64,000 nt of DNA, taken from Burkholderiales bacterium. Its GTDB lineage: Bacteria; Pseudomonadota; Gammaproteobacteria; Burkholderiales; SG8-41. The stretch is taken from contig DATAJS010000032.1 of assembly GCA_036262035.1 (NCBI GenBank), positions 62,001 through 126,000 of the forward strand, in the 5' to 3' direction. Made by a program: the position numbers and the translations under genes. Below are positions 12,041 to 53,608 of the stretch, in pieces. How positions within the stretch are numbered: position 1 is the first letter of the stretch; every line of letters starts with the position of its first letter. The notes beneath the pieces were generated by a model. The model searched no databases. It worked only from the letters and a program-made list of their open reading frames with translations, and was not told where the DNA came from.

Positions 12041-12213
12041 GCCGTTGCTCCTGTTCGTAGAGTGCAGCTTACGCGAGTCTGACACCATCCTGCTCTGCAG
12101 GCATCATCTCCTGGATTGGTTATAGCTCGTGAAGTCCGGACTGCACTCTTCTCCATGATGGGCGGCGCACCGGCCTGAAGCATGCCGCATAATCCGTGAT
12201 TCGCTCTCCGAGG

Positions 12214-13185
12214 ATGACCATGCGCCACAGAATCGCTTTGCTGCTGCTCGCGCTCGCGCCCGCGGTCGCTGCCGCCCAGGTCCGACGCGTCGATTACCCG
12301 ACCAAATTCGTGCGCTTCATCGTGCCGTATGCGCCCGGCGGCAGCTCGGATGTGCTCGCGCGCGCGCTCGGGCAGAAGCTCGGCGACGCGCTGGGGCAGA
12401 GCTTCGTCATCGACAACCGCCCGGGCGCCGGCAGCATGATCGGCACCGACGTCGCAGCGAAAGCGACACCCGACGGTTACACGCTGATCCTCTCCGACAT
12501 GCCTCACACGATCAACCCGAGCATCTACGCGCACGTGCCCTACGATCCGGTGCGCAATTTCGCACCCGTTACCATCATCGGCGTGTCTCCGATGTTCCTC
12601 TTCGCGAACCCGTCGTTTCAGGCGCACAGCGTGAAAGAGCTCATCGCGCTCGCGAAATCGCAGCCCGGCAAGATCGCGATCGCGTCGGGCGGCACCGGTG
12701 CGACCACGCATCTCGCCGCCGAGCTCCTGCGAGGCCGCGCGGGCATCAAGCTCAATCATGTGCCCTATAAAGGCGCCGGGCCCGCTCTCACCGACGTCGT
12801 CGGTGGGCAGGTGCCGCTGACCTTCACTTCGATGGCGACCGCGGCGCCGTTCGCGAAATCGGGACGCCTGCGCATACTCGGCGTCACGAGCGGAAAGCGG
12901 CTCGCTTCGTTCCCCGACGTTCCGACGTTCGAGGAGAGCGGCGTGCCTATCGTGTTCGAGCACTGGTGGGGCGTCATGGCGCCCGCGGGCACCCCGCGGC
13001 CCATCATCGACAAGCTTCATGAAGCCATCGTCAAAGCGCTTGCGACGCCCGACCTGCGCGAACGCTTCGCAGCGCTCGCGGTCGAACCGCGCACGAACAC
13101 CCCTGAGCAGTTTCGCGCGCTGCTCGAATCCGACCTCAAGCGCTGGGCGAAAGTGGTCAAAGACGCCGGCATCAAACCCGAATGA
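12214..13185 (+). CDS. Bug-family tripartite tricarboxylate transporter receptor
   Basis: Third Bug/TctC receptor, 323 residues from ATG 12214 (an ATG six bases on is equally possible). The signal peptide ends near AVAAAQ. The family blocks VRFIVPYAPGGSSDVLAR, IDNRPGAGSMIGTDVAAK, HVPYDPVRNFAPVTII, NHVPYKGAGPALTDVVGGQ and the end KRWAKVVKDAGIKPE are all present. Its stop overlaps the start of the M28 peptidase gene (ATGA), so the two are coupled; xsc diverges from it across a 173-bp intergenic region that must hold both promoters. Confidence 0.93.
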   Translation: MTMRHRIALLLLALAPAVAAAQVRRVDYPTKFVRFIVPYAPGGSSDVLARALGQKLGDALGQSFVIDNRPGAGSMIGTDVAAKATPDGYTLILSDMPHTINPSIYAHVPYDPVRNFAPVTIIGVSPMFLFANPSFQAHSVKELIALAKSQPGKIAIASGGTGATTHLAAELLRGRAGIKLNHVPYKGAGPALTDVVGGQVPLTFTSMATAAPFAKSGRLRILGVTSGKRLASFPDVPTFEESGVPIVFEHWWGVMAPAGTPRPIIDKLHEAIVKALATPDLRERFAALAVEPRTNTPEQFRALLESDLKRWAKVVKDAGIKPE

Positions 13186-14459
13186 GCGCGATGGATAACG
13201 CATTACAGGAAGTGCTTGGTGCGGTCTCCGCGGATGAAGCGATGTGGTCCGATTTCCTCGCACTGTGCGATTGCGGCGGCCGCCGCGCCGGCACGCCGAG
13301 CGAAGAGCGGGGTATTGCGCTGGTGCGCGAGCGGCTCGCGAAAATCGGCAGTGAAGTGAGTGTCGCTCGTGTGCCTTATGCCGCGTGGCGTCTCGACCGG
13401 GCGTCTCTCGATCTCGACGGCGTGCCGCTCGCATGCAATCCGCTGCTCGGATCACAGTCGACGCCGGCTGAGGGCGTCGCGGGGGAAGTGTGCGATGTGG
13501 GCCGCGGGACGCCCGCAGACTTCGAGCGACATGCCGCCGCCATCGCCGGCCGCTTCGTCGTCGTGCGGCACGAATATCCGTTCAGCACCGAGACCGTCCA
13601 CCGCCGCCGCAAGCTTGCGATGGCGATGGAGAAGGGCGCGGCCGGATTCATCATCGCCAATCCGTTCCCGGGGGCAGGCGCCGTAGCAGGTTCGTCGGGA
13701 CGCGGCGGCGCCGCGGGCATACCCGCGGTCGGCACCGACTATGAATCGTCCGTGCGGCTCGCAGCGGCTTCCGGCTCGCACGCACGTGTGCGTGTTGTCC
13801 TCGCTGCCGAGGACTGTGCGGGAGAGACATCGGCGCTGATCCTCGATCTGCCCGGCAGGACACGCGAATGCGTGGTGCTGAGCGCGCACGTCGATGGCCA
13901 CGATCTTGCCGAAAGCGCCATGGACAATGCGACCGGTGTCGCAGCGGCGCTGGCGATCGCACGCGCGGTCGCGCCACGCATCGCTGAATGCGAACGAGGG
14001 TTGCGCGTGTGCATCTTCAGCGCGGAAGAGTGGGCTCTCGCGGGCTCCCGCCAGTATCTCGATACGATGCCCGACGAAGAGCGCGCGCGCATCGCGTTCA
14101 ACGTGAACCTCGACACACTCGGCGGCGACGAGCGCTTCACCGCGCTCACCAGCGACTTTTCGAAGCTGGACGCCTACGTGCAGACTGTCGCGCGCGAATC
14201 CGGATTGGCGCTCGGAACCCACCTGCCGATGATGCCCAATTCCGACCACTACAACTTCGCGCGCCACGGCATACCGGCGCTGCGCCTCGTCGCCGGCTTC
14301 AACCGCCCCGACAGCGACATCCGTCTCATCCTGACCCGCGGCGACACCCGCGATCGCGTCGAGCCCGCCCAGTTCACCGAAGGTGCCAGGATTGCCGCAA
14401 CCCTGGTATGGCGCGCGCTCACTGCCAAAAGCGAAGCCCTGCGAGACTTGCGCAAATAA
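13182..14459 (+). CDS. M28-family metallopeptidase
   Basis: A 425-residue zinc aminopeptidase-like protein. An N-terminal part is followed by a PA-type insert (about residues 95-200, EGVAGEVCDVGRGTPADFERHA to GIPAVGTDYESSVRLAAA). The M28 catalytic domain has ligands in LSAHVDGHD, AMDNATGVAAAL, FSAEEWALAGSR (Glu-Glu), NLDTLGGDE and NSDHYNFARHG. No signal peptide is visible, so it is probably cytoplasmic. Coupling to a Bug receptor gene suggests it may hydrolyse an imported amide or peptide-like compound; that is inference. Confidence 0.88.
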   Translation: MSAMDNALQEVLGAVSADEAMWSDFLALCDCGGRRAGTPSEERGIALVRERLAKIGSEVSVARVPYAAWRLDRASLDLDGVPLACNPLLGSQSTPAEGVAGEVCDVGRGTPADFERHAAAIAGRFVVVRHEYPFSTETVHRRRKLAMAMEKGAAGFIIANPFPGAGAVAGSSGRGGAAGIPAVGTDYESSVRLAAASGSHARVRVVLAAEDCAGETSALILDLPGRTRECVVLSAHVDGHDLAESAMDNATGVAAALAIARAVAPRIAECERGLRVCIFSAEEWALAGSRQYLDTMPDEERARIAFNVNLDTLGGDERFTALTSDFSKLDAYVQTVARESGLALGTHLPMMPNSDHYNFARHGIPALRLVAGFNRPDSDIRLILTRGDTRDRVEPAQFTEGARIAATLVWRALTAKSEALRDLRK

Positions 14460-15094
14460 GGACGGGAGGCCAGGAGGGAAACATCGTCGGCGGCAGCTCG
14501 TAGGACTTTACCTCGCTCATAGCGCGCGAGTCGCGGAAATGGGCTGACGTCGCGACAAAGGCTGGCATACGGCCGGATTGACGAAGCGCCAGGCGACCGC
14601 GGCACGAGACGTTCATCGCAGCGCTCGCTTGAAGGGGCATTCGCCGCCTTCGCATGCTTGGTGGGTCAATTGACGGGTCGGGAGTGACCGCTCGGGGCTA
14701 CAGGCGGAGAGCTGGGGATTCTGGCGGAGAGAGGGGCTCGAAGCTTCGCCCTGCTCTGCGGCCGCTGCGTTACAGCAGTACGGGAATGGCTGGCGCCGAA
14801 AGCATGTCGCAGGGAGATTTCGCTGCACGAGCCGCGCGCTACGTTGCGCGCCACGCGAAAGCAGCCGATTGTCGCGGGCTTTTACGTGGCGTCGGCTAGA
14901 CGCAGCTTGAACGTGCCCCCCGCCACGCACATACTCACATCGGGGAAGAACGTCGTTTCAAGGAACACCGGAGGAACCGATCACGACACATCGCTAACGC
15001 ACCGATCAAGAGATCGATGTTCGCTCGAAAGCACTGCCGAAAATCCGAGGCGCTGGTAAACGGGTAAACGGAGGCGTGCTAGCGACTTGATCGA
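14460..15094. other. non-coding junction region with tRNA-Ser-3'-end-like segment
   Basis: No gene is supported over these 635 bases; all frames give short, atypical peptides. TGGCGGAGAGAGGGG at 14722-14736 resembles the reverse complement of a bacterial tRNA-Ser 3' end, without any tRNA body attached. The region separates the peptidase gene from the second attachment-like sequence. Confidence 0.4.
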
Positions 15095-15190
15095 CTGGAG
15101 GGGGGGTCACAACCTAATCGCGGACCTAACCTGTTGACTGCTCGCCCTTCTCTGCCTCGTCGGCGACCAGTTACCCCAACTGTTACCCCG
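15095..15190. repeat. attachment-site-like sequence B, left end of the pPIWI-RE island
   Basis: The core CTGGAGGGGGGGTC (15095-15108) equals the tRNA-Cys 3' end with one C lost. It is followed by GGACCTAACCTGTTGACTG and by two direct TTACCCC repeats (15171-15177 and 15183-15189) that look like integrase arm sites. The layout matches sequence A base for base over much of its length. The integrase remnant starts about 220 bp to the right and reads away, the usual arrangement at an integrative-element left end. Confidence 0.65.
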
Positions 15191-15412
15191 CGCCGCACAG
15201 CCATCAATCGCGGGCACCCTGTTGCTGAGGCTCGCGGAGAGGGTGTCCGCCTCGATAGCGTCCGACAGCGTCGTCCACTAACGGCAAGCTAAGTGCCCGT
15301 GTCACTACCAAAACAGACTTCTCACGTCTTATGATGTCCGTACCCATCCAGTAGCCTCCAGAGCTGGTTCGGTAGTCATTTCGGTAATCACCTTTCGTGG
15401 CGACCAAGGCAC

Positions 15413-16063
15413 ATGACGCGGCAAATTCACAAGCTCACAGCGGTATGGATCGCCAGCCAAAAGCTGGCCGAGCATATCCCAATCTCGGTGGTCGCTATCT
15501 TCAGATCGGTGGGAGCGGCGCGAAGTCTTGGCTGTTCAAGTTCATGGTCAGGGAAGCGATTCGGCATGGGCTTGGCCCCTTACACGCGGGTTCACTCGCG
15601 GAAGCTCGTAAACGCGCCGCGGAATGCCGAGCGCTCGTCGCGGGACGCATGATCCGATGGTCCGTCAGGGGCAGCAGCAGGCGAAGCTGGCGGAGAAGAC
15701 CGCGGTGAAGACGTTCGGCGATTGCGCCGACGCTTTCATAGAGATGCAACGCCCCGACCCGGAAGAACGAGAAGCATGTAACCCAATGGACGAATACGAT
15801 CCGCGACTATTGCGGGCGTCTTCGCCCCCTCCCCGTCGCTGACATCGAGACGTCCCGCGTCCTCGAAGTACTGCAGCCGATCTGGAGCCCCAAGCGGGAG
15901 ACCGCCAGCCGTCTGCGCCGGGATTGGAGCGGATACTCGACTGGGTGAAGGTCCGCAACTACCGGGCGGGCGAAAATCCGGCTCGTTAGCGCCGCCACCT
16001 AGACAAACTTCTCCCTGTGTTCAACAAAGTCGGATGCGCTCGCGAGAATGATACGCACAGAGG
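15413..16063 (+). pseudogene. P4-type tyrosine integrase, decayed and truncated
   Basis: Pieces of a P4-like integrase appear in order in shifting frames. The start is MTRQIHKLTA; then GGRYLQIGGSGAKSWLFKFM, HGLGPLHAGSLAEARKRAAE (DUF4102 arm-binding domain), AVKTFGDCADAFIEMQR, then WTNTIRDYCGR, PIWSPKRETASRL and ILDWVKVRNYRAGENPAR. At least four frameshifts and a stop break it, and the IS3-family element at 16.06 kb removes the catalytic half. The island is therefore not expected to move by itself. It lies just inside attachment-like site B. Confidence 0.85.
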
Positions 16064-16116
16064 TGGCTCCGCTTGTTAAGACAGAATTCTGCGGAAGTTA
16101 AGTGCAGCCCTGCGGG

Positions 16117-16944
16117 TTAAGCTGCCAGCGGAAGCGGCAGCGATTTGAAGTACACGGCATCGGGCGTCATGCCGTCAAGCGCACGATGCGGCCTGCGCCC
16201 GTTGTAGAAGTCGATGTATCGCGCGATTCCGGCCTTGGCGTCGGCAACGGTGTCGTAGGCGTGCAGATAGATCTCTTCGTACTTGATTGTCTTCCACAGC
16301 CGTTCGACGAACACGTTGTCGCGCCATGCCCCCTTGCCGTCCATGCTGATCGCGATGCCGTTGCGGCTGAGCAGTCCGGTGAACTCGGCGCTGGTGAATT
16401 GGCTGCCTTGATCGGTGTTGAAGATTTCGGGCTTGCCGTTCTTCACCAACGCTTCCTCGACCGCCTCGGTGCAGAAGTCGGTGTTCATGCTGATCGAGAC
16501 CCGCCAAGCCAGAACGCGCCGCGTCGCCCAATCCAGCACCGCCGCCAGATACACGAAGCCGCGGCTCATCGGAATGTAGGTGATGTCCATTGCCCACACT
16601 TCATTCGGACGCTCAATCACCCGGTTACGCAGCAGATACGGATAGATCGCATGCGCCGAATGCCTGCGGCTGACGTTAGGCCGGCGATAGAGCGCTTCGA
16701 TCCCCATCGTCTTCATCAGCGTCGCCACATGCCTGCGGCCGACGCTGTAGCCCTCGTTGTTCAGCAGATCGCGCAGCATGCGGCTGCCGGCGAAGGGATG
16801 GTTCAGGTGCAATTCGTCGATGCGCCTCATAAGCACCAGATCGCCAGGCGGCGTTGCCCGAGGCAGGTAGTAGACCGAAGCCCGCGAGAGCTCGAGCAGC
16901 TGCGCCTGGCGCGTGATGGGAAGCTCGTGCTCAGGATCGATCAT
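16117..16944 (-). CDS. IS3-family transposase OrfB (DDE integrase domain)
   Basis: A 275-residue product from the ATG overlapping the orfA stop (ATGA). The N-terminal HTH_21 segment is SRASVYYLPR to NHPFAGSRMLRDLLNNEGY. The rve catalytic core shows the DDE triad in WAMDITYIPM, FNTDQGSQFTS and DNVFVERLWKTIKYEE, and the closing YNGRRPHRALDGMTP is typical. In IS3 elements the active enzyme is normally an OrfAB fusion made by frameshifting near the overlap. The gene appears intact. Confidence 0.92.
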   Translation of the reverse strand: MIDPEHELPITRQAQLLELSRASVYYLPRATPPGDLVLMRRIDELHLNHPFAGSRMLRDLLNNEGYSVGRRHVATLMKTMGIEALYRRPNVSRRHSAHAIYPYLLRNRVIERPNEVWAMDITYIPMSRGFVYLAAVLDWATRRVLAWRVSISMNTDFCTEAVEEALVKNGKPEIFNTDQGSQFTSAEFTGLLSRNGIAISMDGKGAWRDNVFVERLWKTIKYEEIYLHAYDTVADAKAGIARYIDFYNGRRPHRALDGMTPDAVYFKSLPLPLAA

Positions 16945-17246
16945 CGCTTTGCGCTCGCATCGTCGATACGACCGAGCGCGCCGGCCAAAAAATCGTTCTC
17001 CATGGCGAGCTGCCCGATCTTCGCCTGTAGGTCCTTCACGCTCGGGCCTTCGGTCCCGCGCTTCTCGCCGGCAGTGGCGAATACGTGGCCGGCACGCTCG
17101 AGGAGTTGGGCCTTCCATTGGGTGATTTGCTGCGGATGGACATCGAAGCGCTCGGCGAGCTGCGCCAGCGTCTGGTCCCCTTTGAGGGCGGCCAGCGCCA
17201 CCTTCGCCTTGAACGCCGATGAGTGGTTACGACGGGGTCGTTTCAT
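16941..17246 (-). CDS. IS3-family transposase OrfA
   Basis: A 101-residue protein with an N-terminal helix-turn-helix (SSAFKAKVALAALKGDQTLA, then LAERFDVHPQQITQWKAQLL) and a C-terminal leucine-rich coiled segment (VKDLQAKIGQLAMENDFLAG) that mediates dimerisation in this family. It overlaps orfB by the ATGA arrangement. It supplies DNA binding at the terminal repeats. Confidence 0.92.
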   Translation of the reverse strand: MKRPRRNHSSAFKAKVALAALKGDQTLAQLAERFDVHPQQITQWKAQLLERAGHVFATAGEKRGTEGPSVKDLQAKIGQLAMENDFLAGALGRIDDASAKR

Positions 17247-17356
17247 TGCTCATGCTCCTATGCGGGCTCATGGCCCGATTAGAGCAGAGCTACACTTATC
17301 CGACTGTCTGAAAAACCGGAGCCCTCTCTCACTGCGTACATCGACATCCCGGCAAT

Positions 17357-17385
17357 TTGAGTCTTTGGTACGCACCCGATACACT
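17357..17385 (+). promoter_or_regulatory. candidate sigma-70 promoter of the pPIWI-RE operon
   Basis: TTGAGT at 17357-17362 and TACACT at 17380-17385 are 17 bp apart, each four of six to consensus. It lies just outside the IS end and 33 bp before the first gene's start, so the operon can be transcribed without IS read-through. Weak evidence from motif match and position only. Confidence 0.4.
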
Positions 17386-17418
17386 GAGACGAAAGAAGTG
17401 GGGTCAGGAGGGTCGGTT

Positions 17419-18756
17419 ATGTCTTCCACGCAGAAGGCGTTCCTCACGGACGCTAAGCGCAGGCTTCAGCAGACCATTCCCAGCCTTACCTGGGATCAGT
17501 TCGCCAACCTCTTCCAGATCGAGCCGCGGGCCCTTAAGACGTATCGGATGCCCGAGACGTCCGCCGACTACCGGGTGATGCCTAAGGCATTGCGGGCCGC
17601 CATCGAGCATCGCGTTCAGCCGAAGGCCGACTCCGCAGCCATACCCGATGTTTCTGACCCAAAAGACGTCCCGGCGACCGTCATTGTTCAGGCGCTGGCC
17701 GCGCTTGTCGTGCGGCAATCTCGGATTGCCGTACTCGAACGGCGCGGGATCTCAGGCCTAGACCGCACACCTGGCACGACATCGGGGCTCACGAGCGAAG
17801 ACCGGCGCGCCATGGCACTCGTCTCTCGCGCCCGCCTTTCGCAGGGTCAATCTGATATCGGCTCAGAGATTCACGAGTTGCTCTGGCATTGCACGCAAGC
17901 TCTCGGTGGATGGCTTAGCCTGCCGGATATCTACTCAGAGCAGTTGAGCCAGATTGTGCTGCTTGACGCGGAAGAAGGCGTTCCTACGCGAGAGGCCGAC
18001 GAACTCGCGCGCAACTTCGGCGGGGTATCAGCTGGTCTCGAAGAAATGATCTTCGGGCGTTTCAAAGAGTTGCTTCTTACGAAGAACTCAAGAGCCACGG
18101 CAGAAGAGCATTACACCCTGGTGCGCGAATTCGTCGTGCGCAATCCCATCACGACATCCGAAAAGCTAAACGAGCTCACACGTCGACTGCATGTATCAGT
18201 CGGACAGTTTCTTACGCAAACGTTTTACGAGCCGGTGCCGGAGCACTGGCTGATTGGTGAGGATGTGCAACTGTGCGCGCATTGCGGCAACTCAATGGGA
18301 CATGGTGTTGCCGCACTTAAGTGCCGAACCAACGCTTGCTCCGAAACCCACGCTGAGTTGCCCGGCGCGCGTATTCACGGCAGCAAGGCGTTGCGACTGG
18401 GACGCGGCCTGCGCCAGTACTGGCAGGAACCTGGAGTTGATGAAATCAGCCTATTCGACGCTCTTAAGCAAGCATCGCACAACCCAGCACTCTACCCCAG
18501 CATGGATCGGGTAGACATCGAGGTAGGTGACGTGGGCATGGACTTGAAAGCCTACGCGTCGCCCGAATTGCTTGCGGCCCGAATATCGCGTAGCGCCGGC
18601 GGATTACTTTACTACCGGAAGAAGTGGCTCGTTATCCCCGACCGCTTAACAAAGCGGGTGCCCGCTTATATGGATCGCCTCAAAGCACGGCTTACGAATA
18701 GCGACGTGCGCTGCCTTACGGCGGCTCAAGTACTGAAGGAAATACGCCATGCGTGA
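17419..18756 (+). CDS. pPIWI-RE-associated REase protein (zinc ribbon plus PD-(D/E)XK)
   Basis: A 445-residue first gene of the operon. The ATG follows AGGAGG by 7 nt; the open frame upstream runs antisense through the IS and is not coding. An N-terminal segment of about 65 residues looks like a helix-turn-helix (LTWDQFANLFQIEPRALKTY). The middle is helical and unassigned. A zinc-ribbon-like knuckle has C286, C289, C302 and C307 (CAHCGNSMGHG). The C-terminal domain fits the REase of pPIWI-RE three-gene islands: D363/D366 in MDRVDIEV, then D375-L-K377 as the (D/E)XK motif in GMDLKAYASPELL, and a KKWLVIPDRL core strand. It presumably cleaves nucleic acid recognised by the pPIWI-RE protein. It overlaps the helicase gene by 8 bp. 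Confidence 0.8.
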   Translation: MSSTQKAFLTDAKRRLQQTIPSLTWDQFANLFQIEPRALKTYRMPETSADYRVMPKALRAAIEHRVQPKADSAAIPDVSDPKDVPATVIVQALAALVVRQSRIAVLERRGISGLDRTPGTTSGLTSEDRRAMALVSRARLSQGQSDIGSEIHELLWHCTQALGGWLSLPDIYSEQLSQIVLLDAEEGVPTREADELARNFGGVSAGLEEMIFGRFKELLLTKNSRATAEEHYTLVREFVVRNPITTSEKLNELTRRLHVSVGQFLTQTFYEPVPEHWLIGEDVQLCAHCGNSMGHGVAALKCRTNACSETHAELPGARIHGSKALRLGRGLRQYWQEPGVDEISLFDALKQASHNPALYPSMDRVDIEVGDVGMDLKAYASPELLAARISRSAGGLLYYRKKWLVIPDRLTKRVPAYMDRLKARLTNSDVRCLTAAQVLKEIRHA

Positions 18757-21700
18757 GGCACTGAAACCATATCACGGCGCAAACGCGTTGAACTATGTAT
18801 GCGTAATCGCCACTGAAATCTTGCAAGTCAATCACCTGCGTGACATGCCATCACTTGCCGCAGGTTTCGCAAGTGTGATCAACACGCTGCCGATCGCTGC
18901 GGCTCGTGCGCTCAAGAACTTGCGGGCTGCTGGACATGCTCCCGCGACTCTACGTGAGCTTCGGCTGATGGTGGACCAATACAACAATCACCACGAACGG
19001 CGTTTGGAGCAGCGCCGTAGCACTTCAGGGCCTGTACGCGTTAACGAAAGAGGACGCCCGCCCAATGATGACGTCGACACATTCGAGGCACGGTTCCAGA
19101 TAGACGAGAGATTGAACGTCACTCGGCGCTGGGGACGCATCATGCCTAAGGATGTGTCACAGGCCGTGCAGATGCTCACGGGGCGCCTACCACCACGCGA
19201 GTGGAAGCGCCGTCCGCCGCATGATCCTCTGCGCAGGGCAAGCGCAACAGTCAAGAGCTCCGGCTTCCGGGCCGACGTGGAGCCGCTCGGCTTCACGCCG
19301 CTCCCACCACCTACCTATGACCTCGCGCGGAAACCGCGGGCCGTGCCACCTATTAACTGGGCGGACTTGGTCAGCATTGCAGATCAGTTCGACAACCTCG
19401 ACGTGGACGGTGGCCGCCAACAGCCAGACGAGCGGAGGTGGTACAACCGACTTTACGATAGTAAAGGCAACTCCACCGCGATTCTCAAAGAAGCCACGCA
19501 GAATGGCCTGCAATCCACGGACATACTAAATCTCAGCGGCATCAAACATCTCATCGGCTTGCCCGGCGCAGGCAAGACCACGCTGTTGTACTTACTCGGC
19601 GCTTACTTTGCGCAGCGCGGTTACCGCGCGTGCTTTCTGTTCCCTTCCATTGAGGTGTCAACTCGGTTCGCCGAGACGCTCAGTCTCTACGACATTCCCG
19701 CGGCGCTCCTTTTCGGCCAGAGTGAGGCTTCGCGCACGCGTCACGTAGCCAATTTCAGCGCGTCTTTGTCGTCGAAGAGCCTGGGACTAGGCGTTACTCG
19801 TTCAACAGCACCCTTCTTTGCCACGAACTGCGCATTGGCGGGCTTCGCCTCTGATGAGGAAGAAGCCTTTCCTCATAGCCGTCCGCCGTGCGAACAACTC
19901 GAGCAGCGCGAATCACAGGGCCGGCGTTATAAGCATTGCGCACTCGCATCCGTATGCGGCCGACAGTATTCCGAACGCGCGCTCATAAGCATGCCTCTCT
20001 GGGTCGGTCACGTATTGTCTATGGATCGCGCGGTCACGAATCTCTTCAGCGACCACCGCTTACAGCACTTCGAATACCTCGCGCGGACATTCGATGTGCT
20101 GATCATTGACGAATGTGACGGCGCGCAGAATATGCTCGATGCTCGCGGCACGCCCATGATGAAACTCTCTGGCAGTCACGATTCGGTCTGGAGTCACCTC
20201 ATACAAGACTTCCACGGCGCGGTAGCGCGAGGCAGTAACGCCTTCGTCTCACAAGCCATGATGCCGCACATGCTGGAGATGACCGGACGGTTCGGCCGGG
20301 CCACTGATCGGCTCATGTCCTGCGTAAAGCATCTGTCGAAGCCACTGCACGAAGCTTACAAGAACAAGATGATGACGACGGTTTCCCTAATCGCTGATCT
20401 CTATCATGTCGGCGACCCAGAGGGTCTAGACAACGTAAAAAGCAAGGCGCGCGACGCGCTCGAAAAGATATGGGATTTGGCGGCGAAAGAAGTTGCGTTC
20501 CGTAACGTGCCAGCCACGCAGGACATAGATGAATACGAACAGGACCCGGACGAAAACCCTACCGACATCCATCGCGCGATTTTGGACGCCGCGCTTGACG
20601 TGAATGTACCAGAGGATCAGCTACGAGCTCTTTACCAAACGGTCTTTCAAAATCTCGAGCGATGGGATGCGACGGCAGACAAAATGCACCTGCTTGCGCT
20701 CTCAAACGTGCTGAGGCACGACGCCAAGTCGCTACTAAAGCTTGAGTCTGAGCACGACGCTAACGCTTTCTTCGAGCACGTAAGCCTGCTTGCAACTGTC
20801 TCGCTTCTCGTGCTGCAGCACTTCGGACTAGCGCCGCACCTCCGGCTCCTCAACGCGCAGGGGCTCGTTGGTGATGATGTATTCGAGTCCCGCCCGTCGA
20901 AGGACATGCTTGGCCTCGTTTCGGAGGCACTGGTTGGCCGATTAAGCGGAGTGCGCTACACGATCAGCGAAGAGGGTAACGTGGAGATTACCCACATCAG
21001 CTTCGTTGGTACCCCACGCCTGCTGCCCGAACGTATGAACGCCCTCGGTGTCGAGGACGGCGAAGGCCCTGCGGTCCTTTACACCAGCGCCACCTCAATG
21101 CTCGAGGCGAGTCCGAGCTTTCATGTGTCAGCTGGACCGCATTACGTCCTGCACCGCCCAAACGCCGGCTCGGGTTGGACTGCCTCCAAGTACACATTCA
21201 AGCCACTTAAAGGACCGGACGGGCATTTCCTGCGCTTCAGTGGTGCAAAGATGAGCCAACGCGAGCGAATGCTGCGAACGATGGCAGAGGAATTGCTGCG
21301 CGGTGGCGCGATGAGCGATGTGGAGAGCGCACTGAACTCTCATGATGTGGTGGATGGTGTCGGCCGCAAGGCGGCATTCGTCCTAAATAGTTACGACCAA
21401 TGTGAGATGCTCTTTTCATACATCCAGGACAACCACCCCGAGTGGCGCGGCCGCGTTCGGTACCTCGTGCGTGCCGCGCCCAGCGCCGCAATTGCTGAAT
21501 TCGCAATCACGGCATCGGAAATCGAGCGCCTCGGTGAGGACCCGAAGTGGGATCTGCTCTTGTTCCCCATGAACGCGATAGGTCGCGGCGTGAATATCGT
21601 CTATCGATTTGGACCGCGCATCGACAAAGCGATGATTGGATCTCTGTTCTTTCTAACGCGTCCACACCCGCGCTCGGAGAGTCTGCAGTTGATGCAAGGC

Positions 21701-22135
21701 ATCATCGGACGAGCTTCTGAGGATTTTGACGGGCAGACGTTTCATACCACCGACGAGGCACTGCAGGCGCTCTCGACGCATCGACACTCACGTTCTCGAG
21801 AAATCCGTCGCTTGCTGCGACTTCCGCTCGCCATGGGCGCACTGGGAAGTTATGCGAAGCCCTTCGTGGCCGACCAAATGATCATGATCTTGCAGACAAT
21901 CGGCCGCGCGATGCGAGGCGACTGCCCTGCGTACGTATATTTCATCGACGCCGCCTGGGCGCCGAACTCTGCGCATGGACTTCCTGACACAGCCCAGAGC
22001 TCTATGTTGGTAATGATCCGGGAGATCTTAGCGGAATGCTTAAACCACGCCGATCAGTCTAGGCGCGAGTGTTACCAAAATCTTTATACGTCGTTCTCGA
22101 TTCCGATGAACAACATTGAAGGACTGGTGAGCTGA
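18749..22135 (+). CDS. DinG/XPD-type superfamily 2 helicase of the pPIWI-RE system
   Basis: A 1128-residue helicase. An N-terminal region of about 260 residues without known motifs precedes the ATPase core. Walker A is LIGLPGAGKTTLL (K276). Walker B is VLIIDECDGAQ (D454, E455; a DECD box rather than DEAH). Four cysteines between them (C361, C381, C397, C403) sit where DinG and XPD hold their iron-sulfur cluster. Late motifs include NAIGRGVNIVYRF (942 on) and the arginine-finger block LQTIGRAMRGDCPAY (Q1049). Start overlaps the nuclease gene; stop overlaps the giant gene (TGATG). DinG-type helicases are a fixed partner of pPIWI-RE proteins and may unwind RNA-DNA hybrids or R-loops; the actual substrate here is inferred. 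Confidence 0.87.
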   Translation: MREALKPYHGANALNYVCVIATEILQVNHLRDMPSLAAGFASVINTLPIAAARALKNLRAAGHAPATLRELRLMVDQYNNHHERRLEQRRSTSGPVRVNERGRPPNDDVDTFEARFQIDERLNVTRRWGRIMPKDVSQAVQMLTGRLPPREWKRRPPHDPLRRASATVKSSGFRADVEPLGFTPLPPPTYDLARKPRAVPPINWADLVSIADQFDNLDVDGGRQQPDERRWYNRLYDSKGNSTAILKEATQNGLQSTDILNLSGIKHLIGLPGAGKTTLLYLLGAYFAQRGYRACFLFPSIEVSTRFAETLSLYDIPAALLFGQSEASRTRHVANFSASLSSKSLGLGVTRSTAPFFATNCALAGFASDEEEAFPHSRPPCEQLEQRESQGRRYKHCALASVCGRQYSERALISMPLWVGHVLSMDRAVTNLFSDHRLQHFEYLARTFDVLIIDECDGAQNMLDARGTPMMKLSGSHDSVWSHLIQDFHGAVARGSNAFVSQAMMPHMLEMTGRFGRATDRLMSCVKHLSKPLHEAYKNKMMTTVSLIADLYHVGDPEGLDNVKSKARDALEKIWDLAAKEVAFRNVPATQDIDEYEQDPDENPTDIHRAILDAALDVNVPEDQLRALYQTVFQNLERWDATADKMHLLALSNVLRHDAKSLLKLESEHDANAFFEHVSLLATVSLLVLQHFGLAPHLRLLNAQGLVGDDVFESRPSKDMLGLVSEALVGRLSGVRYTISEEGNVEITHISFVGTPRLLPERMNALGVEDGEGPAVLYTSATSMLEASPSFHVSAGPHYVLHRPNAGSGWTASKYTFKPLKGPDGHFLRFSGAKMSQRERMLRTMAEELLRGGAMSDVESALNSHDVVDGVGRKAAFVLNSYDQCEMLFSYIQDNHPEWRGRVRYLVRAAPSAAIAEFAITASEIERLGEDPKWDLLLFPMNAIGRGVNIVYRFGPRIDKAMIGSLFFLTRPHPRSESLQLMQGIIGRASEDFDGQTFHTTDEALQALSTHRHSRSREIRRLLRLPLAMGALGSYAKPFVADQMIMILQTIGRAMRGDCPAYVYFIDAAWAPNSAHGLPDTAQSSMLVMIREILAECLNHADQSRRECYQNLYTSFSIPMNNIEGLVS

Positions 22136-25100
22136 TGCATGCCATCGATGACGGCGATAAATGCTGGACGCGTATTAGTGGTACGACGCTCAAGGACGGT
22201 ATCAAGAAAGATCGTAAGAGCCTCGTACTCTGCGGCGTGACATTCTGTCAGCCCTGGCTACACGAGCCTGTCGACACCTTAAACATTCACTTCACCGGAG
22301 AACTGCTCCAGTCCCTGCGCGACCTTGCCGCGGTCGCCAAAAACACCAAAGATGAGCGCGGCTTTCTGTTGCCGGTCCGAAGCCTGCGGGCCACGCTAGC
22401 CGCTCGCGTGAAGTCTCTGATTCGCGTCGATAGGAATCTCGGCTTGGACGAGGCTGCTCGAAATGAGCCTGCCCTCCTGCTATACGGCAGTATCGCCGAC
22501 ACCGAGCAGAAGACGATACTGGTGCAAGGCATTTTGGATGCGCTTCATGCATGGGGCGTCAATACGCTAGACCGCTGGGCTGAACAATTCCATGCCGAAG
22601 CGATCGTAAAGCGCATTCGGAATGCGATCGCCCCAATAAACATCAAGATCGTTCCAGAACGCCGCATTCCGGCGAGCAGTGGTCGCAATAAGGCCTACGA
22701 CTACCAACTCATTATTCAGCGCGTTGCCGATCGTCTTGTTGGAGCCGAGCTTTTTGCCGGCTTTGGCCCGTGTGAAATAGTTCTCGACACCGAGCCTGAC
22801 AGCAATTCAGTCGAACTGATGACGGCTCCCGCTAGAACTGCCGGCCAAAACGCAGTCTTTTCGCTGGTCGCAAAGCTCTCCGCAATCACGGTCCCCTACG
22901 ACACAAGATTGTACCTCCGCATTGCCATGTCGAAGCGCGTTTGGTCGGCACGAGTGCCGAGCATCCGCTACAGCAATGTTGGGCGTGTGAGTGGATATGT
23001 GATGACCCCCGACGGGCGCATAGCGGCCATTCCCGTTTTTCGCAACAAGACGGATGGCTGGCAATTTGGTGATGAATACGCCGTTTGGCTATACGAGTCT
23101 CAGAGTCAGTTGCCCAGCAAATTAGCAGACGCCGTGGCGAGGCGCGTGCCCGGTCAAGGGCAGTGGTGGGCCGGACTGCCAGAACTCACCACCTTATTCA
23201 GCCGAGTGTCTCCGCGGACTGTGTTTGAAAACGACGAAGCCGAACTGCGCGAGAAGACCCTCGGTCTGCTCAAGAGCGCAGGCGTGGTCGATCAAGATAT
23301 CGATTTTCGTCCTGTGCTCATTCCGCGACGTAGTAAAGCGGTCGAAAAGCGTGAGCCAAACAGGATCGCAATGCTCAAACTCCAAGACCTCGGCATCGTG
23401 GCGGGCGATCCTCTCTTCCACGATGAGCCTGAGGAAGACGAGCCGGACGCGAATCCCCGGATAAAGGCGCACCGCGAAGAGAACGTCGCGCTGATTCAAC
23501 TTATCTACGATGGCGTGAGGCCCGTTCTTTGGAGCTTTTGCAGCACTGAAGACGAAAAGCGACTCATCGAGAGTACGGTAGTGGGCATGTTCGGTGACTC
23601 CGTCGACCTCAGGGCGGAGCTGTTGCCGACGGATAGCCACGGTCTAAAGGCTAATCTTCCAGGAGCCGACAAATCTGGGCGATTGCGCTTTGAAGAGCGC
23701 GTGAAAAGCTGGCAAGAGGCCGCACTGGAGGTAGCGAGCAGTCGTGAGCCTCGATACGTGCTCATCTGCGCTCCTGACAAGATCGCGGGAAAATTCGAAG
23801 ACCCAGTGAATTACTTCGCTGGTATGCATGCGATGTGCGCCATCGGCAAAGCCAACGTTCACCACGTGCTGCCGATTGGCGCGGGCAACATCGCCGACTC
23901 GCAGCAACACTTCGTTCATCGTTTGCAAAGTGCTTTGCTGGATGTTTTCTTTGCCCATTCCGGCCTGCTCTACGGCGTGCGGAATGAGTTCGAAGCACAC
24001 TTTGGCGAGGCAATGCCCAATGCTGTTTATGGCATTCAAGTCGTGCGCTCACGCGCGCGCGCATTCTCCGGCGAAAGCTCTGTTGAATTCATTCTTTACA
24101 CGCGGCTACCCATTGGCATTAGCAAGCCTAATGGCGACCGCGTTACCGCAACCGACGTGCGGTTTGTGTACTCGACGAAACGTAAGCTCACGAAATCAGC
24201 GTGGATGCCCATGCGTGAGGGGTTGCAGTGGCTCGCGTCCCAACGCGACATAGATCCAGAAAAGAACTGGCTCCGGGATAACTTTGCACGACAGACCCGC
24301 GATTTCTTAGGGGAGATACACAAAGACGACCCGCGAGCGGTCGTATTGATAGATTGGCAAACCGTTCGCGGATTGTGGCCCAATCTCTCAGATGCAGATC
24401 TAACGACCACGGGACGTCCGATGATTGATCGGATCGATATCGCCAGCGCATGCCCAAAGATGACGCTTGTGCGAGTGCGCCACGGTGACGGATCGATCAA
24501 TTTGCGGGCGAAGACAACCACCATCTACCAGGAACTCTTTCTCGGCGAATCGGGCAGCCAAGAAATTGAAGGGCCGGAACGAGGCGTAGAGATATACCCA
24601 CACACCTATACCACGACGACCAAGGCGATTGTTTCTATTGACCCGGCTGGAGCAGGCGCTATGCAGTCGTCGTGTGGTCATTACATCATGACCATGGGTT
24701 ACCGCAGCACCGTCCAACTACCGAGGGGCCAGTCATGCTATCGCGTAATGCCCCGGATGAGGAAGGTCGCGGACGAGTTGTACCGCAGGGTATGGATGCA
24801 GCCGAGCAGAATTGACGCGGCTCTGCCGGCCCCGCTCGAAGTCACGGTAATGCATTGCCCAAGTGACGTGTCACCGGACAACGTCGCCATAGCGATTATG
24901 GCGCTGCGGATAGGCTTTACCCACTACAAAGACTATAGCAAGTTGCCAGCGCCGCTTTTCTTCAAGCGAAAGGTCGAAGACTACATCATCCGATACCGCG
25001 GTCCCGCTGTAGATGTATCAGACGCCGCTGAGGAGCCTGACTCGGATCTTCCGGATACGGAAACTATCGCGATCGATGATGAACCAGAAGCTGCCGCGGA

Positions 25101-28100
25101 TCTGGATGCGGAGCAGGTTAGTCTGAAGTTCGAGCAAACACTCAATTCTTCGACAAGTGCGGTTTCTTCGCCACTGCCCGACCCTGCGGAATCGGTTGGC
25201 TCGCACTGCGTTGGGTCCGGCTTCCCAGATCGGATAGACGGCTGCGGCACGGTCGAGGCTGGCGATCTGCTAGGGCGCGCGAAGGAACTCGCTAAAACTG
25301 ACATTTTGCTCTACAAAAAGGACGCGGCATTCGCGCGACGCAAGCTATACAACAGCATGCTGACAGGCCAGTGCCGCGTCTACGTGCCCGTACCCTACTT
25401 CGTTACGCAAGGGTCGATTTTCGATGGCCGCCCCCCGATCGACAAAGCGACTTTGGGGCGTTTTTGGCGCAATTCGAAGGAATGGCGCTGGGTCGCCGGT
25501 GCATGTCCGACGCTTGGCCAGATCCCAAAGTGGGTGATGAACCGTCTCAACATCCCGCAGGGGGGCATAAGCCTAGATGGATCGCCACTATTTCCTCGCA
25601 CCACCCTATTTCGCGCGATCAACAACGGCTGGGATGATTATTGCGAAAGTCATCCACACGATGATGGAGTGGAAACTGCGCGCCGTCGCATCGACCTTGT
25701 GAAGCTCACGCGCTGGGCCTGCGATAGCAACAACGACGTCCTTTTGGCGTGGCTTGTATTCGGCGCGGCTCAATTCCCATACAAGTCGCACCTCAGCGAC
25801 GTGGTTGAAAACGTCACGGCTATCCTCGGGCAAGCAACGCACGCGGCTTTGCACTATTTCTGTGATTGCGCGTGCGCTATCGCGATGACTAAAAACCGAG
25901 ACGCATTGGAGCGTGGAATTCACTTTGCACCTGGTCCTCGCCCGGAGCACATCTTCGGCGACGAACAGGCGCCTCAAGCCTTCGGGGTAAGCGAACCGCA
26001 GACAAACCACCGGCACGAATCAACAAGGGACGTTTTGAATATGGCATTCGTACCTAAAAGCGCCGTTCATACTGCTGTGGCGCAGGTGTTCCGAGACCAG
26101 CGCGTCAATCAAACGTCAACTGGTCTCCTCTTCTCGGCTGTCGAGTGTGCGCTGACTCCTGCACCCGGTGTGGTTAGTAGCGCTTTGTCTGAAACGAATT
26201 GCGAGTGGGCCGACGACACGTCGATCATGACGTCCCTGCAAAAGGCCGGCATACCGAAACCTGGGGATCCGCACTTTGCTGACGCCGTGGCGAAGCTGCG
26301 CGCAGCTCTAGATGACTTAGAAGATCAACACCAGAAACTCATTGACGAGCGCGAAGCCGAGGCCAAGGCTGCGGAAGAAGCGGCGGCGGCGGCGCAGAGA
26401 TCAGCCGAACTTTGGAGTGAGCTACTCTCGAACGCTGGCGCCCTCGTCGAACGTGCTTGCAACGACTTACTAGATCTGCAGCAGAGTGGGATCAGAGTCG
26501 CCGCGGAGCCGGCCGGGGACATTGAAGCCGCGAGAAAGAGCTTCGAACTCGTGCAGGGACTGATCGCCGCCGCTAAGCAGGCACAAGACGAATGGCAGGC
26601 TGTTGAAGACAAGGCTGACACGCGCAACATGAAACCGCTTGAAGCGACGCGTCACCGTAAGAAATGGGAGCGTGCCGTTGAAGTCGCGGAACGCACGCTT
26701 GAGGCGGCCTATAGCGAGATCGCCCTTGCCGTTGCAGATTCTCCGCTATTCGTGATGCCAGTCGGCCCGCAGGAATCCCTAGATCCTGCGGTTCCTATGG
26801 CGGCTTTAGTAGATGGCGGTCACGTCGGCCGGCTCGTGGCTGAGTCATTGGTGCCTGCGGGACCGGACCGCGAGCCCGAACCTCGACCGCATCTGGCGTG
26901 CCCACCCGCCGTTACACTGCCTTCTGCCCCGTCATCTGTTGATGTCGACTCCGCCGGCGAGGCCGTACCGCCGCGGGGCGACGAGGCGCTCGTTCAACTG
27001 CTCGTTGAGCCTTTCGCGGTACGGAACCTTGCGGCCGACGCCAAGGAGTCTACGCGCGACGCACTACCTGAGACCTTCGTTGGGCGATCCGACAACGATC
27101 GAACGCCCGAGCTGGCGGAAGAAGCGCCCGCTGGAGCTCCCGGCAGCACAGAGTTCCCCGACGGCACCAATCTTGACCAGCGTGTTGCCGTCCTGAGCAC
27201 TCTCGTCGACCAGCAAGTGCTCATCGGAGCTGAGATCTACGCTGACGCTATGGAGCGCGCTGCGCAGCCGAATATGCTTGGAGATCACCCGGCAATCATC
27301 GGCGCCGCACTGCGCGAGATCCGTCGGCTCCAGCGGCCAAACGACCAAGACCCTGCGCGGTCTGATCGCGGTGCTACGCAGCGACTACTTTCACTTATCG
27401 CATCAGAGAAAGGGCTGGACGCCCGAGAATACGCGGGGCAACCCGCTATAGCGCTTGCCGTGCTCGCTGCCGGCCTCCATCTAATGCTGTTTCCGGAGAC
27501 CGATAGCGGGGCGCGCTGGACGTTCATTCAATACCTCGCGCCGCGCTTTACGCCCTATCTACCGCTGAAAGCCTTGATCGAGCGCATTGAGAATCTCGAA
27601 GGTTTTACCATCACTCGAGAGGATATCGCTGCTGCAAAGATCGGGATCCGCGATGCGGTGAGCCGTAAATTGGATGCCATGCGGCAGCGCGCTCGACACT
27701 GGCACCAAGACGGCGACTTGTACCGCAATTGGACTACCCACGAATACAGAGCCATACATGCAGCATTCTTCCAAAATGAGATCACCCCGGTCGGCAGATG
27801 CCTCGCTCTAATCGCTCGCGGAGCCGACGGCGAACTGGTCGACGCCATCGCCGACGCCGAAAAAAGCTTCGCGACTGCGGTTAACGCCATTGATGACTTG
27901 CGCCGCAAAATTGGCCGTCGCCAACCGATCGAAGGACAAGCGCGCGCGCACATCGTAAAGAACCTGCGCACCACTGAAGAATTCATCAGGCTATACCAGG
28001 AGGCCGCCGCACGCGCCGCCAACCCGCAAGCGGAAGTGCCGCCCAACGTACGCCAGTTTCTGCAAGGTCTCTACCGGGACATCGTGACGGCTGTTGAGTT

Positions 28101-31100
28101 TGTGTGTGGAATGGGGTTTGGCCAGTCGGTTGAAATTCTCTACCGCACTCTCGCGTCTCATGCTCTCTTTACGATCAAGGCGATGTTCGACTGCGCTGAG
28201 GCCGCGCCTGCATTGTCAAACCGGGAGCAGCTGCTCCTTTTACAGCTCCCGATGAATTCCGATCTCACGCCCTCTATTCAACCGACAGCGGATTTTCTTG
28301 GTCGAGCGCTTTCGCCCGTAGCCGACCCGCTGATGGCCATGAAGGAGGTCGAAACGTTGAGCCGCATACTGGAGGATGCTGGGAGCCAAATCACGGATGG
28401 CGCGTGGAGACGGGAACAGATGCAACGCGCCTTTGAATTCCACTTGATGCAGCGTCGAATGTTGCCCGCCGAAATCATCAACAAACAATACTTGGAAGGC
28501 GCAAACAGCACGGCTTGTGGGGACGCCCGAAATCGTAACGTCCTCGAACTTACTGCCGAACTGCATAAGGAGCGTCAACGCGTACTTCATGCCGTTGCGG
28601 TCGCCGGTCTCAGCCAGAGCGAGTCTGATCGGATGCGCGAGGTGATCGAGCGTTTACTAAGTGCTACACCCCTACTTGGCATGCCTGGCGCGGAAGTCCA
28701 TGGCATTCCGGATTTCCCGCACGCATATGGCGCGCTACGCGAACTAGTCCGGGACGAACTGGACGCAACGCTCGAGCAAAGCGTGTTCAAACTGCGGCAG
28801 GAGGCCGAGGAATTTTACGAGACGCATAAGGACACCATAGGCCGAAGCGACATAGATCGCATCTTTCACCTTGTTTCCGACCGGTCCGCGTCCAGCATCC
28901 GCACTGCCGCGGACATGCTCTCCTTGTTACGCGATGGCGCGTTGCCGCCGGCGCGCGCGGCAAGCGACGCGAACGCTACAGAATACGTCGGATTTATTCG
29001 CACCGTTCGCTCCACGATCTCAGCCAGCCGCCCACTCATTGAGTCTGTCGAGCGGCGCCTACATACCGAGCATTCACAGGAGGACCCAGCGTGGATCGGC
29101 GCTTTGAGCTCTGACGAGCGCATCGAAGGGCTGCATCTGGTTCAGACATGGATCTCGCTGACTACGTCCGGAAATCCACGAGAGACTGAGGAAGCATTAA
29201 AACGGCTGTTCGCCGTGCTGGATGTCGAGATCACGGTAGCGCCAATTTCGCGCACAGAACAAAAGATCATCGACTTCTTCCTGCCGGATGGGCCCTTCGC
29301 CGGCATGGAACGCACGCACCCGGGCTTGTTCATACCACCCAGTCTAGGTTCGCAGAAACGGCCGGTGCAAGGCATTCTTTTGCGCGGCAACATGACGGAC
29401 GCGGCGATAAGTCAGCTGATCGAAGACCGATGCCACTCTACGCCAACGCTCGTCCTGACAAAGAATCCGATGCCTTTGGAAAAGCGCGCAGCTATCTGTC
29501 GTGACAATCCGGTACTCATCCTTGATGATGAACTGCTCGCCTATGTTGCCTTACACCCCAAGGACCGTCTCGCGCGACTGCTTCACGTTGCGCTGCTGAC
29601 CTACCACGATAGCCCCTACGACGACTATGGGGCTCAACCCGTGCCGACCGAGATGTTCTTCGGGCGGCGTCAGGAGCGTAATAAGCTGAGGAACGTGAAG
29701 AGTAGCGCCATCCTGTATGGAGGTCGTCGCCTCGGCAAGTCGTCGTTGCTTGCTGAGCTCCACTATGACACTACTGTCAATGGCGCCGATCGCGGCGAGG
29801 AAGTGATCTACATCCCGTTCGCTGCAACCAGCGACCTCGAAGATCACGTATCCGTCGCATGGAGCACTATTTACCGCAAACTCGTTCAAAGCAAGTTTAT
29901 CCCCCGTCCGTCTGGCAAGACGCCGACGTCCGCAAAGGCAATTCGCGAGTACTTGGAAGAGATGCTAGCCACAGGACAGGCTTCGCGACGTAGCCTCTAC
30001 ATGTTGATCGACGAAGCTGACGACATTATGGGGCGCGATCTAATTGCGGGCGGTCAATTCGTTGCCGAATTGCAGCGGCTGTGCGAATCAGTGCGTGGCA
30101 AATGCAATATCCGGTTCGTTATTACCGGCTTGCACAATCTAACTCGCATGGCCAACGAGGAAAATTCCCCGCTTGGTAAGTTTGACGCGATCGCGCTGAA
30201 ACCGTTTTGGTCCGCCGAGGACATACAACGCGGTATTGACCTTATTACGGTGCCTCTCGCTGGCTTGGGATTCTACTTCGGCAGCGGCAAGGACGATTTG
30301 GCTTATCGAATCATGGCTGTATGTAACTTCTATCCCGCCCTTATCCAATTGTATTGCAAGAGCTTGCTCGCACACCTGTACAACAAACGCGAAGTCGCAC
30401 CGCCACCCACATTCATCGATGAGAGTGATCTCGATAAGGTCGAGAATGACAGCACCTTCCTGCGGGAGATCCAAACGAAGTTTGTGGCAACACTCAATCT
30501 AGACAAGCGGTACAAGGCTATCGCTCTGGTACTCGCAGACCACTACTACTCCGCCAATACCGAGCGGGGGCTGACGGTGCCGGAAGTACGTGAGCTTTGC
30601 GAAACCTACTTTCCTGAGCAGTTCCGCAACACCTTTCCCGACGCTTACAACTCGCTGCTAGACGAGATGGAGATTCTGACCGTATTAAAGCGAGTCCAGA
30701 ATCGCTACATGCTGCGTACGCCAAACATCGCCACGATGCTTGGCAATAGAGACGACATCGATCGACTGATTGAAGAGTTGGCGATGGAGAAAGCGAACCA
30801 TGGCCGGCTACGCGGGGAGATGCGAAGCATTCTCACCCCTTTCAAAGGTGGTCGCGAGCACCATACCTTTCCGATGGCCAGCGCTTGGACGCGCAGTGTC
30901 ATGAATGTAGGAGCGGAATTAGACCGGGATGTACTTATTCTCGTTGGAAACGCGCTGTCTGGCCTCTCGACGCTAAACACGCTAAAGGGCGACTGGCAGA
31001 TTGGCGAAGCGGGTGCGGCCACTAACGTGCTCGATGTGAAGCTCTACCCGTCCCCTGAGATGGCCCGCACCATTCTAGTGCGGGAGACTCGTGCGTCGCG

Positions 31101-33011: not shown

Positions 33012-33187
33012 CTAAGGCGCGCAGTGCCACTGATTGTCGCTGTTTTGAGTCACGATCAGCTTGTGACCACGCGCTGCGCCGCAGGTATCTGCTGATCTAT
33101 CCAGTTTTCAATCTGCGTCTCGGGCCAGCCCACTGCCCTTGGCCCTCACCGACAGGTTCCACGCGTTCAGATAAAAGTCGGTTCTTA
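33012..33187. other. short non-coding end of the island
   Basis: No gene, terminator hairpin or repeat is evident between the last island gene and the attachment-like sequence C. Confidence 0.5.
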
Positions 33188-33299
33188 TATTGGACAACTG
33201 ACTGGAGGCGGGGGTCTCCATCGAATTTGCCGTGTAACCTGTTGTCACAGCGGCAATATCAACAAGATGCGTTCCGTTAGTTACCCCGGGACTTACCCC
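33188..33299. repeat. attachment-site-like sequence C, right end of the pPIWI-RE island
   Basis: CTGGAGGCGGGGGTC at 33202-33216 is identical to the 3' end of the tRNA-Cys gene, and with the 14 bases before it matches the tRNA-Cys locus at 26 of 29 positions. TAACCTGTTG and two TTACCCC arm-like repeats (33281 and 33293) follow at nearly the spacing seen in copies A and B. It delimits the pPIWI-RE island on the right, and by its layout may also be the left end of a further element reaching the tRNA-Cys gene. Confidence 0.7.
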
Positions 33300-33471
33300 A
33301 TTTAAAGCCTGGCCGGACGCGGGCACTCGACAAGCTACTTCCCACGCGGGGCAAAGAGAAAGCGCGTAAAGCCCCAAACACGGCCTGCTCGGGTGACGCA
33401 CGTGACCTGCCCAGGTTTTTCGGGCCAGCCGGAACTTGAGAAAATGGCTCCCGTACTGGCAAGGGAGTTCC

Positions 33472-33735
33472 ATGAAGAAGGTCCGTTTCACCGAAGAGCA
33501 GATGGTCGCGATCCTGCGGGAAGCCGACAAAACGCCGGTCGCTGAAGTCGCGAAGAAGCACAAGATCAGCGAGCAGACGATCTACAACTGGCGGCGTCAT
33601 TTCGGCGGCCTGGAGCCGGTCGATGTTAAGCGGCTTCGCGGTCTTGAATCCGAGAACGCAAAGCTCAAGCGGCTACTCGCCGAGCGCGATCTGGAGATCG
33701 ATACGCTCAAGGAGATTAACCGCCGAAAGTGGTGA
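33472..33735 (+). CDS. IS407-type transposase OrfA
   Basis: An 87-residue DNA-binding subunit from the ATG after AAGGGAG. It opens with MKKVRFTEEQMVAILREAD, has the helix-turn-helix VAKKHKISEQTIYNWRRHFG, then a leucine-rich segment (LESENAKLKRLLAERDLEID). Its stop overlaps orfB, whose in-frame start candidates are GTG codons; the fusion protein is probably produced by frameshifting. Confidence 0.93.
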   Translation: MKKVRFTEEQMVAILREADKTPVAEVAKKHKISEQTIYNWRRHFGGLEPVDVKRLRGLESENAKLKRLLAERDLEIDTLKEINRRKW

Positions 33736-53579: not shown

Positions 53580-53608
53580 TATTAGATAACTGGCTGGAGG
53601 CGGGGGTC
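53580..53608. repeat. integration core D at the tRNA-Cys 3' end
   Basis: TATTAGATAACTGG followed by CTGGAGGCGGGGGTC spans the tRNA-Cys 3' terminus and its downstream flank. It matches the copy at 33188-33216 in 26 of 29 positions and shares the 13-15 base core with the copies near 9.98 and 15.10 kb, all in the same orientation. This is the copy attached to the full tRNA, so probably the original target. Confidence 0.7.

Follow-up and report, generated by a model that had tools for sequence, protein, structure and literature searches.

A broken integrase gene beside an open defence operon raises the question of whether the two belong to one mobile island and what the difference in their preservation says about selection on the operon. 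We addressed this question in a stretch of 64,000 nucleotides, referred to here as the window, from a Burkholderiales bacterium (genome G000, 7.1 Mb in 32 contigs; the window is contig C32, positions 62001-126000). Our data indicate that the broken gene is likely the integrase remains of one island (approximately 15092-33199) in a seven-island array at a tRNA-Cys gene, with a complete four-gene pPIWI-RE operon as its cargo. The features of the locus, in window coordinates, are as follows.

14724-15091, plus strand: conserved sequence on the left side of the core, interpreted as the right end of the island before it; belongs to a dispersed repeat with matches in its own genome on C32 and C19 (72-77% identity)
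15092-15108, plus strand: left att core of the pPIWI-RE island, a degraded copy of the tRNA-Cys 3' end with 2 differences, from the core-motif scan
15170-15189, plus strand: paired GTTACCCC motif, 78 bp from the core start; putative arm-type integrase sites
15425-16058, plus strand: P4-type integrase fossil, arm- and core-binding half without the catalytic half; 3 agreed frameshifts plus a stop at 15987
16099-17298 (by eye), minus strand: left IS3-type element (rve, HTH_21), single copy in the genome, no clear target duplication
17419-18756, plus strand: gene 1 (P0001), pPIWI-RE-associated REase protein PprRE (PF18154, 1.1e-15; PF18156, 9.8e-7; PprRE, 6.4e-46)
18749-22135, plus strand: gene 2 (P0002), DinG-type helicase PprDinG (PprDinG, 1e-162)
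22135-31800, plus strand: gene 3 (P0003), 3221-aa pPIWI-RE/ATPase fusion (PF13111, PF18157 and PF13032 above cut-off)
31725-33011, plus strand: gene 4 (P0004), AAA+/STAND-like, no Walker A, C-terminal R-x4-H; overlaps gene 3; start taken from relatives, frame open from 31674
33199-33216, plus strand: next att core, an exact copy that forms the right border of the pPIWI-RE island
33280-33299, plus strand: paired GTTACCCC motif of the next island, with one mismatch
33403-34607, plus strand: second IS3-type element, unlike the first, in the next island; CACG on both sides by eye
53591-53668, minus strand: tRNA-Cys(GCA) with the att core at its 3' end; integration target and right end of the array

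The integrase fossil and the neighbouring insertion sequence

The sequence-only reading had described the N-terminal domains of a P4-type integrase running across shifting frames, and our data bear this out. One frame of 15397-15708 gives an Arm-DNA-bind_3 match (PF13356, E 6.5e-9), and tblastn with 19 relatives of the fossil as queries matched the window in two frames at approximately 15425-16058, with the starts of single queries ranging over 15424-15526. Matches to a 54-residue piece of the fossil occur in 23 of 369 genomes of the class; this count includes its own genome, where the fossil is the sole match. The proteins of the 19 fetched relative loci are 239-483 aa long, 14 of them 400-450 aa, and all ten that were scanned contain Arm-DNA-bind_3, Phage_int_M and Phage_integrase in this order. 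The fossil retains the arm domain and then the Phage_int_M region, with the central domain aligned across frames, as expected of a P4-type tyrosine integrase. Since the C-terminal catalytic Phage_integrase domain is absent from the window copy, the fossil is a remnant and not a working integrase. Homology stops before 16060, at residue 206-247, and the catalytic domain of intact relatives begins at residues 209-257. A search for the catalytic domain down to 17450-17500 (tblastn, 19 queries) returned just weak scattered matches (E 0.04-0.7). One of the 19 queries, L095, gave a joined pair of short antisense matches inside the left IS (E 5.8e-4), which we take for chance.

We found that the lesions in the fossil are largely agreed upon in frameshift-aware alignments with 7 of the 20 integrases at hand. 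Frameshifts at approximately 15649-15688, 15741-15759 and 15919-15922, together with the stop at 15987, are common to six of the seven alignments, while an extra compensating pair near 15550/15593 appears in three and an extra frameshift near 15473-15476 in two. The seventh, poor alignment is to the integrase of G001 (score 63 vs 241-333), which gives two shifts and no stop.

The left IS starts approximately 40-70 bp past the last integrase homology. That the fossil was cut by this IS, as had been proposed, is plausible and even likely, but given this gap and the lack of a clear target duplication a deletion beside the IS is equally possible. A composite transposon formed by the two flanking IS was rejected, since the left and right elements share 25% aa identity. 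In the next island, the second IS lies approximately 100 bp past the motif pair, at the place expected for that island's integrase.

The four-gene operon and constraint on its genes

REase, DinG and pPIWI-RE genes in this order, with overlapping or close ends, constitute the layout of a pPIWI-RE system. All four cargo frames are open, unbroken over approximately 15.6 kb, in agreement with the nearly 15 kb of open cargo noted earlier. The pPIWI-RE X, MID and RNaseH domains of gene 3 occupy residues 51-952, and its long C-terminal part contains an ATPase near residues 2520-2690 (AAA_22, E 2.2e-5, just below its cut-off) with invariant GGRRLGKSS and LLIDEADD-like motifs. Structure prediction of the ATPase region was too low in confidence for use (pLDDT 44), comparison of the N-terminal pPIWI-RE part with solved structures gave one chance match (E 0.95), and PADLOC on the four operon proteins gave no DruE match.

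Gene 4 probably starts at the ATG at 31725, judging by an 'MDG' start common to three of six relatives. Its product has no family match, and no Pfam match was found in the window protein or its six relatives. In the predicted model (mean pLDDT 74), residues ~40-320 form an AAA+/STAND-like domain (best Z 10.6, rmsd 6.0, 226 residues aligned) with many tied ORC, clamp-loader and NLR rows in the fold search; the Walker A motif is missing from this domain. R416 and H421 are invariant in all seven aligned sequences, the R of the window copy is followed by D, and the model places this R-x4-H at the end of helix 400-420. The accessible text of PMC3710099 describes the HEPN motif as Rx4-6H with a polar residue after the R, placed at the end of helix 3. 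Gene 4 shows the same spacing, polar residue and helix-end position, and this pattern of motif and predicted helix provides a lead that gene 4 may encode a HEPN-like protein. No HEPN was among the 50 rows listed by the fold search, which were filled by the AAA+-like domain, so that the C-terminal part was hardly probed. Two plasmid homologues of gene 4 also contain R-x4-H, an equivalence judged by eye, as the profile match stops short of the motif. These alphaproteobacterial versions of gene 4 (L120:18789-20366 and L121:18196-19845) have an extra C-terminal AAA_33 (kinase-like) domain, and each of the two operons has a gene for a WYL-domain protein upstream.

We next consider the distribution of the operon. 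Scanning the genome contigs once with P0002 gave six loci, Burkholderiales judging by their titles, and in all six the four genes are open and in the same order, with gene 3 giants of 3225-3481 aa. The N-terminal region matched 15 plasmid records, of which three were opened, and two of these three have the same layout: the Azospirillum and Bradyrhizobium plasmids encode giants of 3256 and 3100 aa, respectively, and in each the gene that comes next is annotated AAA family ATPase. The Tolypothrix plasmid encodes a 1064-aa protein with no such AAA family ATPase gene after it. Because the Burkholderiales relatives and two plasmids have the same layout, the giant four-gene pPIWI-RE system is a recurrent variant in Proteobacteria and not a local accident. 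The operon was not found in three other genomes of the genus, and the C-terminal part of the giant has matches in 7 of 398 genomes from the phylum, its own counted, with four of the seven being short and weak. A 2418-aa protein (L119, genome G545) was rejected as a further candidate; it resembles the giant just around the P-loop.

The contrast between a broken integrase and open cargo had been taken to suggest that the cargo is under selection. Within the operon family, purifying selection is clear. In the close clade (L009, L010, L013 and L014; six pairs per gene), NG86 dN/dS is 0.10-0.17 for gene 1, 0.04-0.10 for gene 2, 0.16-0.19 for gene 3 and 0.12-0.31 for gene 4 (four of six pairs, the rest being saturated). 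Comparison of this clade with L011 gave higher values (0.17-0.53), and the distant L012 was left out of the dN/dS table. The 20 pairs that include the window copy have a pS of 0.69-0.82; five are saturated beyond correction and the others give a rough dN/dS of 0.18-0.50. Since dS of the window copy is saturated, the dN/dS test is not specific to its lineage. At sites invariant in the other six sequences, the window copy has changed at 11/102, 45/365, 71/394 and 4/36 for genes 1 to 4, compared to 5/96, 29/349, 55/378 and 4/36 in L011 (called the next most divergent) and 48/139, 131/451, 237/560 and 23/55 in L012. The window copy has one to approximately two times the changes of L011; these counts suggest no clear relaxation, are no proof of selection in the host, and would allow for mild relaxation. 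The claim of selection is partly supported, as constraint on the family (dN/dS 0.04-0.31), and is not carried over to the window copy, for which dS is saturated and recent arrival is an alternative.

With four agreed lesions in ~587 bp of fossil and none in 15,593 bp of cargo, P is approximately 1.7e-6 under equal rates and equal exposure, a contrast that is valid only if fossil and cargo were exposed for the same time. Decay of the fossil may predate the arrival of the cargo beside it. Furthermore, the G+C of the cargo is foreign (0.53-0.61 per kb vs approximately 0.65-0.70 for 1-14 kb), so recent arrival is an alternative to selection and would likewise leave the cargo genes open. We regard it as rather unlikely, though deserving of serious weight, that the fossil stems from an older occupant and that the operon was brought in afterwards by a different route, either IS-linked or through homologous exchange, in which case the contrast is silent on selection. 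Such a route is consistent with the foreign G+C, with an IS lying exactly between fossil and operon and lacking a clear target duplication, and with the other mobile genes beside the operons of relatives (a serine recombinase in L010, tRNA-Ser and a weak tyrosine-recombinase match in L013, and an IS1595 transposase in L012). Moreover, no P4-type integrase was found near the operon in any of the six relatives, so the tie between integrase and cargo is one of position only. However, that position places fossil and operon within the same two att cores with no core in between, the G+C of 15-16 kb (0.606) is near that of the cargo, and the two IS are too different for a composite transposon. We favor the reading in which fossil and operon belong to one island.

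Probable islands behind the tRNA-Cys gene

The pPIWI-RE island is flanked by direct repeats of the tRNA-Cys 3' end. The repeat at 14724-15257 has eight further matches in the genome, and its copies have in common an 18-nt core followed by the GTTACCCC motif pair. Genome-wide, the core was found at ten sites with up to 3 mismatches (seven exact and one each with 1, 2 and 3 mismatches), compared to four for a reversed control pattern, and the site with one mismatch is the 3' end of the tRNA-Cys gene at window 53591. A direct scan of C32 found seven core-motif pairs, all on the plus strand with a spacing of 78-81 bp, at contig positions 2990, 31924, 43559, 57687, 71980, 77092 and 95199; five of the paired cores are exact while two have 2 and 4 differences. 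No such pairs were found on the other strand of C32, in 100 shuffles (blocks of two bases) or in control loci totalling 227,243 bp. One more motif pair, the eighth, stands at 54157 without a core. The distance from the first detected core on C32 to the tRNA-Cys gene is 112.6 kb, in seven intervals of 5.1-28.9 kb, and these repeats are most simply read as a tandem array of this length, made up of seven islands at a single tRNA-Cys gene. An exact core with a motif pair also occurs once each on two other contigs (G000:C19:8297 and C14:5863), which may be the same array across contig breaks. The tmRNA gene (ssrA) was rejected as the integration target: the core resembles its 3' end, but the strongest match to tmRNA lies on C18, and the core itself is the tRNA-Cys 3' end.

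The order of the genes right of the tRNA-Cys gene is kept in G001, G002 and G003. Left of it there was no match to relatives, which offered just 0.3-5.4 kb of left flank, and neither an empty site nor a circular form was observed. Array genes sampled elsewhere encode TctC receptors, M24 and M28 peptidases, aconitase, a heavy-metal ATPase, an outer-membrane efflux protein, rhodanese, an AcrB-type pump and an ArnT-like transferase. The TctC and M28 peptidase pair of the short preceding island (window 12196-14459) is also present in G001 (L034, 81% and 66% aa identity) in another context.

A reading of the repeats as an independent dispersed element, with no att sites and no island array, is very unlikely. 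Copies do reach up to approximately 550 bp and two of them lie on other contigs, as might be expected of such an element, but the core equals the tRNA-Cys 3' end, the seven copies on C32 share one orientation and regular core-motif spacing and end at tRNA-Cys, and an integrase or its remnant adjoins the motif pair in both the window and G001.

Under the island-array reading, each island would have entered by site-specific integration, the integrases would since have been lost, and the array would now be fixed. The integrase of the pPIWI-RE island would have been lost via frameshifts, a stop and loss of its catalytic half beside the IS. That the lesions are assembly or sequencing errors is the least probable explanation: the genome is a draft, but approximately four lesions in 0.6 kb of fossil contrast with a lesion-free 15.6 kb of cargo that is similar in composition, and the whole catalytic half is gone.

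The island had been described as locked in place, and our searches agree. When 19 integrases were compared with C32:1-146000, the first 16 kb of C19 and the first 14 kb of C14 (tblastn, E <= 1e-4), the fossil alone was matched, with no second remnant. Seven tyrosine recombinases were found in the genome, and the P4 arm domain is in none of them; one, L007, matches the central domain below threshold. Action in trans by a P4 integrase was likewise rejected, with none among the seven recombinases and no match of the 54-residue piece in the genome besides the fossil. The array is apparently immobile. In G001, the same tblastn search found a P4-type integrase in an open frame beside tRNA-Cys with the same motif pair adjoining (L101:67-3630). 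This is a different element at tRNA-Cys: its integrase is on the opposite side of the core from the fossil of the window, and so it is not of the same element type. We take one ORF in this element to be TraG-like from its appearance.

Similar arrangements have been described in other bacteria. According to the accessible text of PMC3146451, the ssrA tandem islands of Dehalococcoides also comprise many direct repeats of an RNA gene 3' end in approximately 100 kb, and 15 islands are without integration modules; those islands involve ssrA and a serine recombinase, while the array reported here involves tRNA-Cys and a P4-type tyrosine integrase with one remnant left. At the asn tDNAs of Klebsiella pneumoniae, tandem accretion has likewise placed composite islands next to one another at a tRNA gene, with a conserved core repeat of 17 bp and with integrases present (PMC4891358, in its accessible part), whereas the array here has more islands and no integrase left.

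Known pPIWI-RE systems and a possible mechanism

The three-gene pPIWI-RE system has the same order of REase, DinG helicase and pPIWI-RE as the window, with matching X, MID and RNaseH domains, and the accessible text of its description (PMC3702460) contains neither an ATPase fusion nor a fourth gene. The window operon differs in its 3221-aa protein with a fused ATPase, compared to 1064 aa in Tolypothrix, and in its conserved fourth gene. In Pseudomonas stutzeri, a pPIWI-RE protein is also encoded beside DinG and is reported to be an RNA-guided DNA nuclease; its coding region is approximately 2.35 kb, and the accessible part of that paper (PMC10991935) does not mention a fused ATPase such as the one found here. 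We found no description of an ATPase fusion in the pPIWI-RE literature within our scope, with subscription papers mostly outside it, and do not claim its absence from print. PMC7641849 was a false lead, the term in its accessible text being 'Piwi-related', and the accessible text of PMC12458937 does not mention PIWI.

The ATPase part of the giant has a homologue elsewhere. A Druantia-like operon of G744 (L117) encodes a 2069-aa protein homologous to this part (E 1.4e-65); the G744 protein has no pPIWI-RE Pfam match, and the window operon has no DruE-like gene. The G744 operon (L117:48-14403) encodes a 1073-aa protein without a family match, a DruE1-like helicase and the 2069-aa protein, and looks like an undescribed Druantia-like system.

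We hypothesize that the pPIWI-RE domain would recognize invading nucleic acid, perhaps RNA-DNA hybrids, that DinG and the REase would open and cut it, that the ATPase part of the giant would work as a switch, and that the fourth, HEPN-like protein would be an RNase effector that cleaves RNA. Recognition by pPIWI-RE and processing by DinG and REase are proposed in the accessible text of Burroughs et al. 2013 (PMC3702460). As a tentative possibility, the four-gene operons might represent an immunity class in which a giant STAND-like ATPase, fused to the PIWI sensor, controls a HEPN-type RNase effector, with the ATPase part common to the Druantia-like operon serving as a signalling chassis for different nucleic-acid sensors.

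The island array would account for the dispersed repeats behind one tRNA gene, and an array without detectable integrases shows which mobile cargo remains once escape is impossible. The common ATPase part ties the pPIWI-RE family to the Druantia-like operon. Furthermore, the pPIWI-RE/ATPase fusion and its conserved HEPN-like partner offer a concrete idea of how effector signalling may work in the little-studied pPIWI-RE family.
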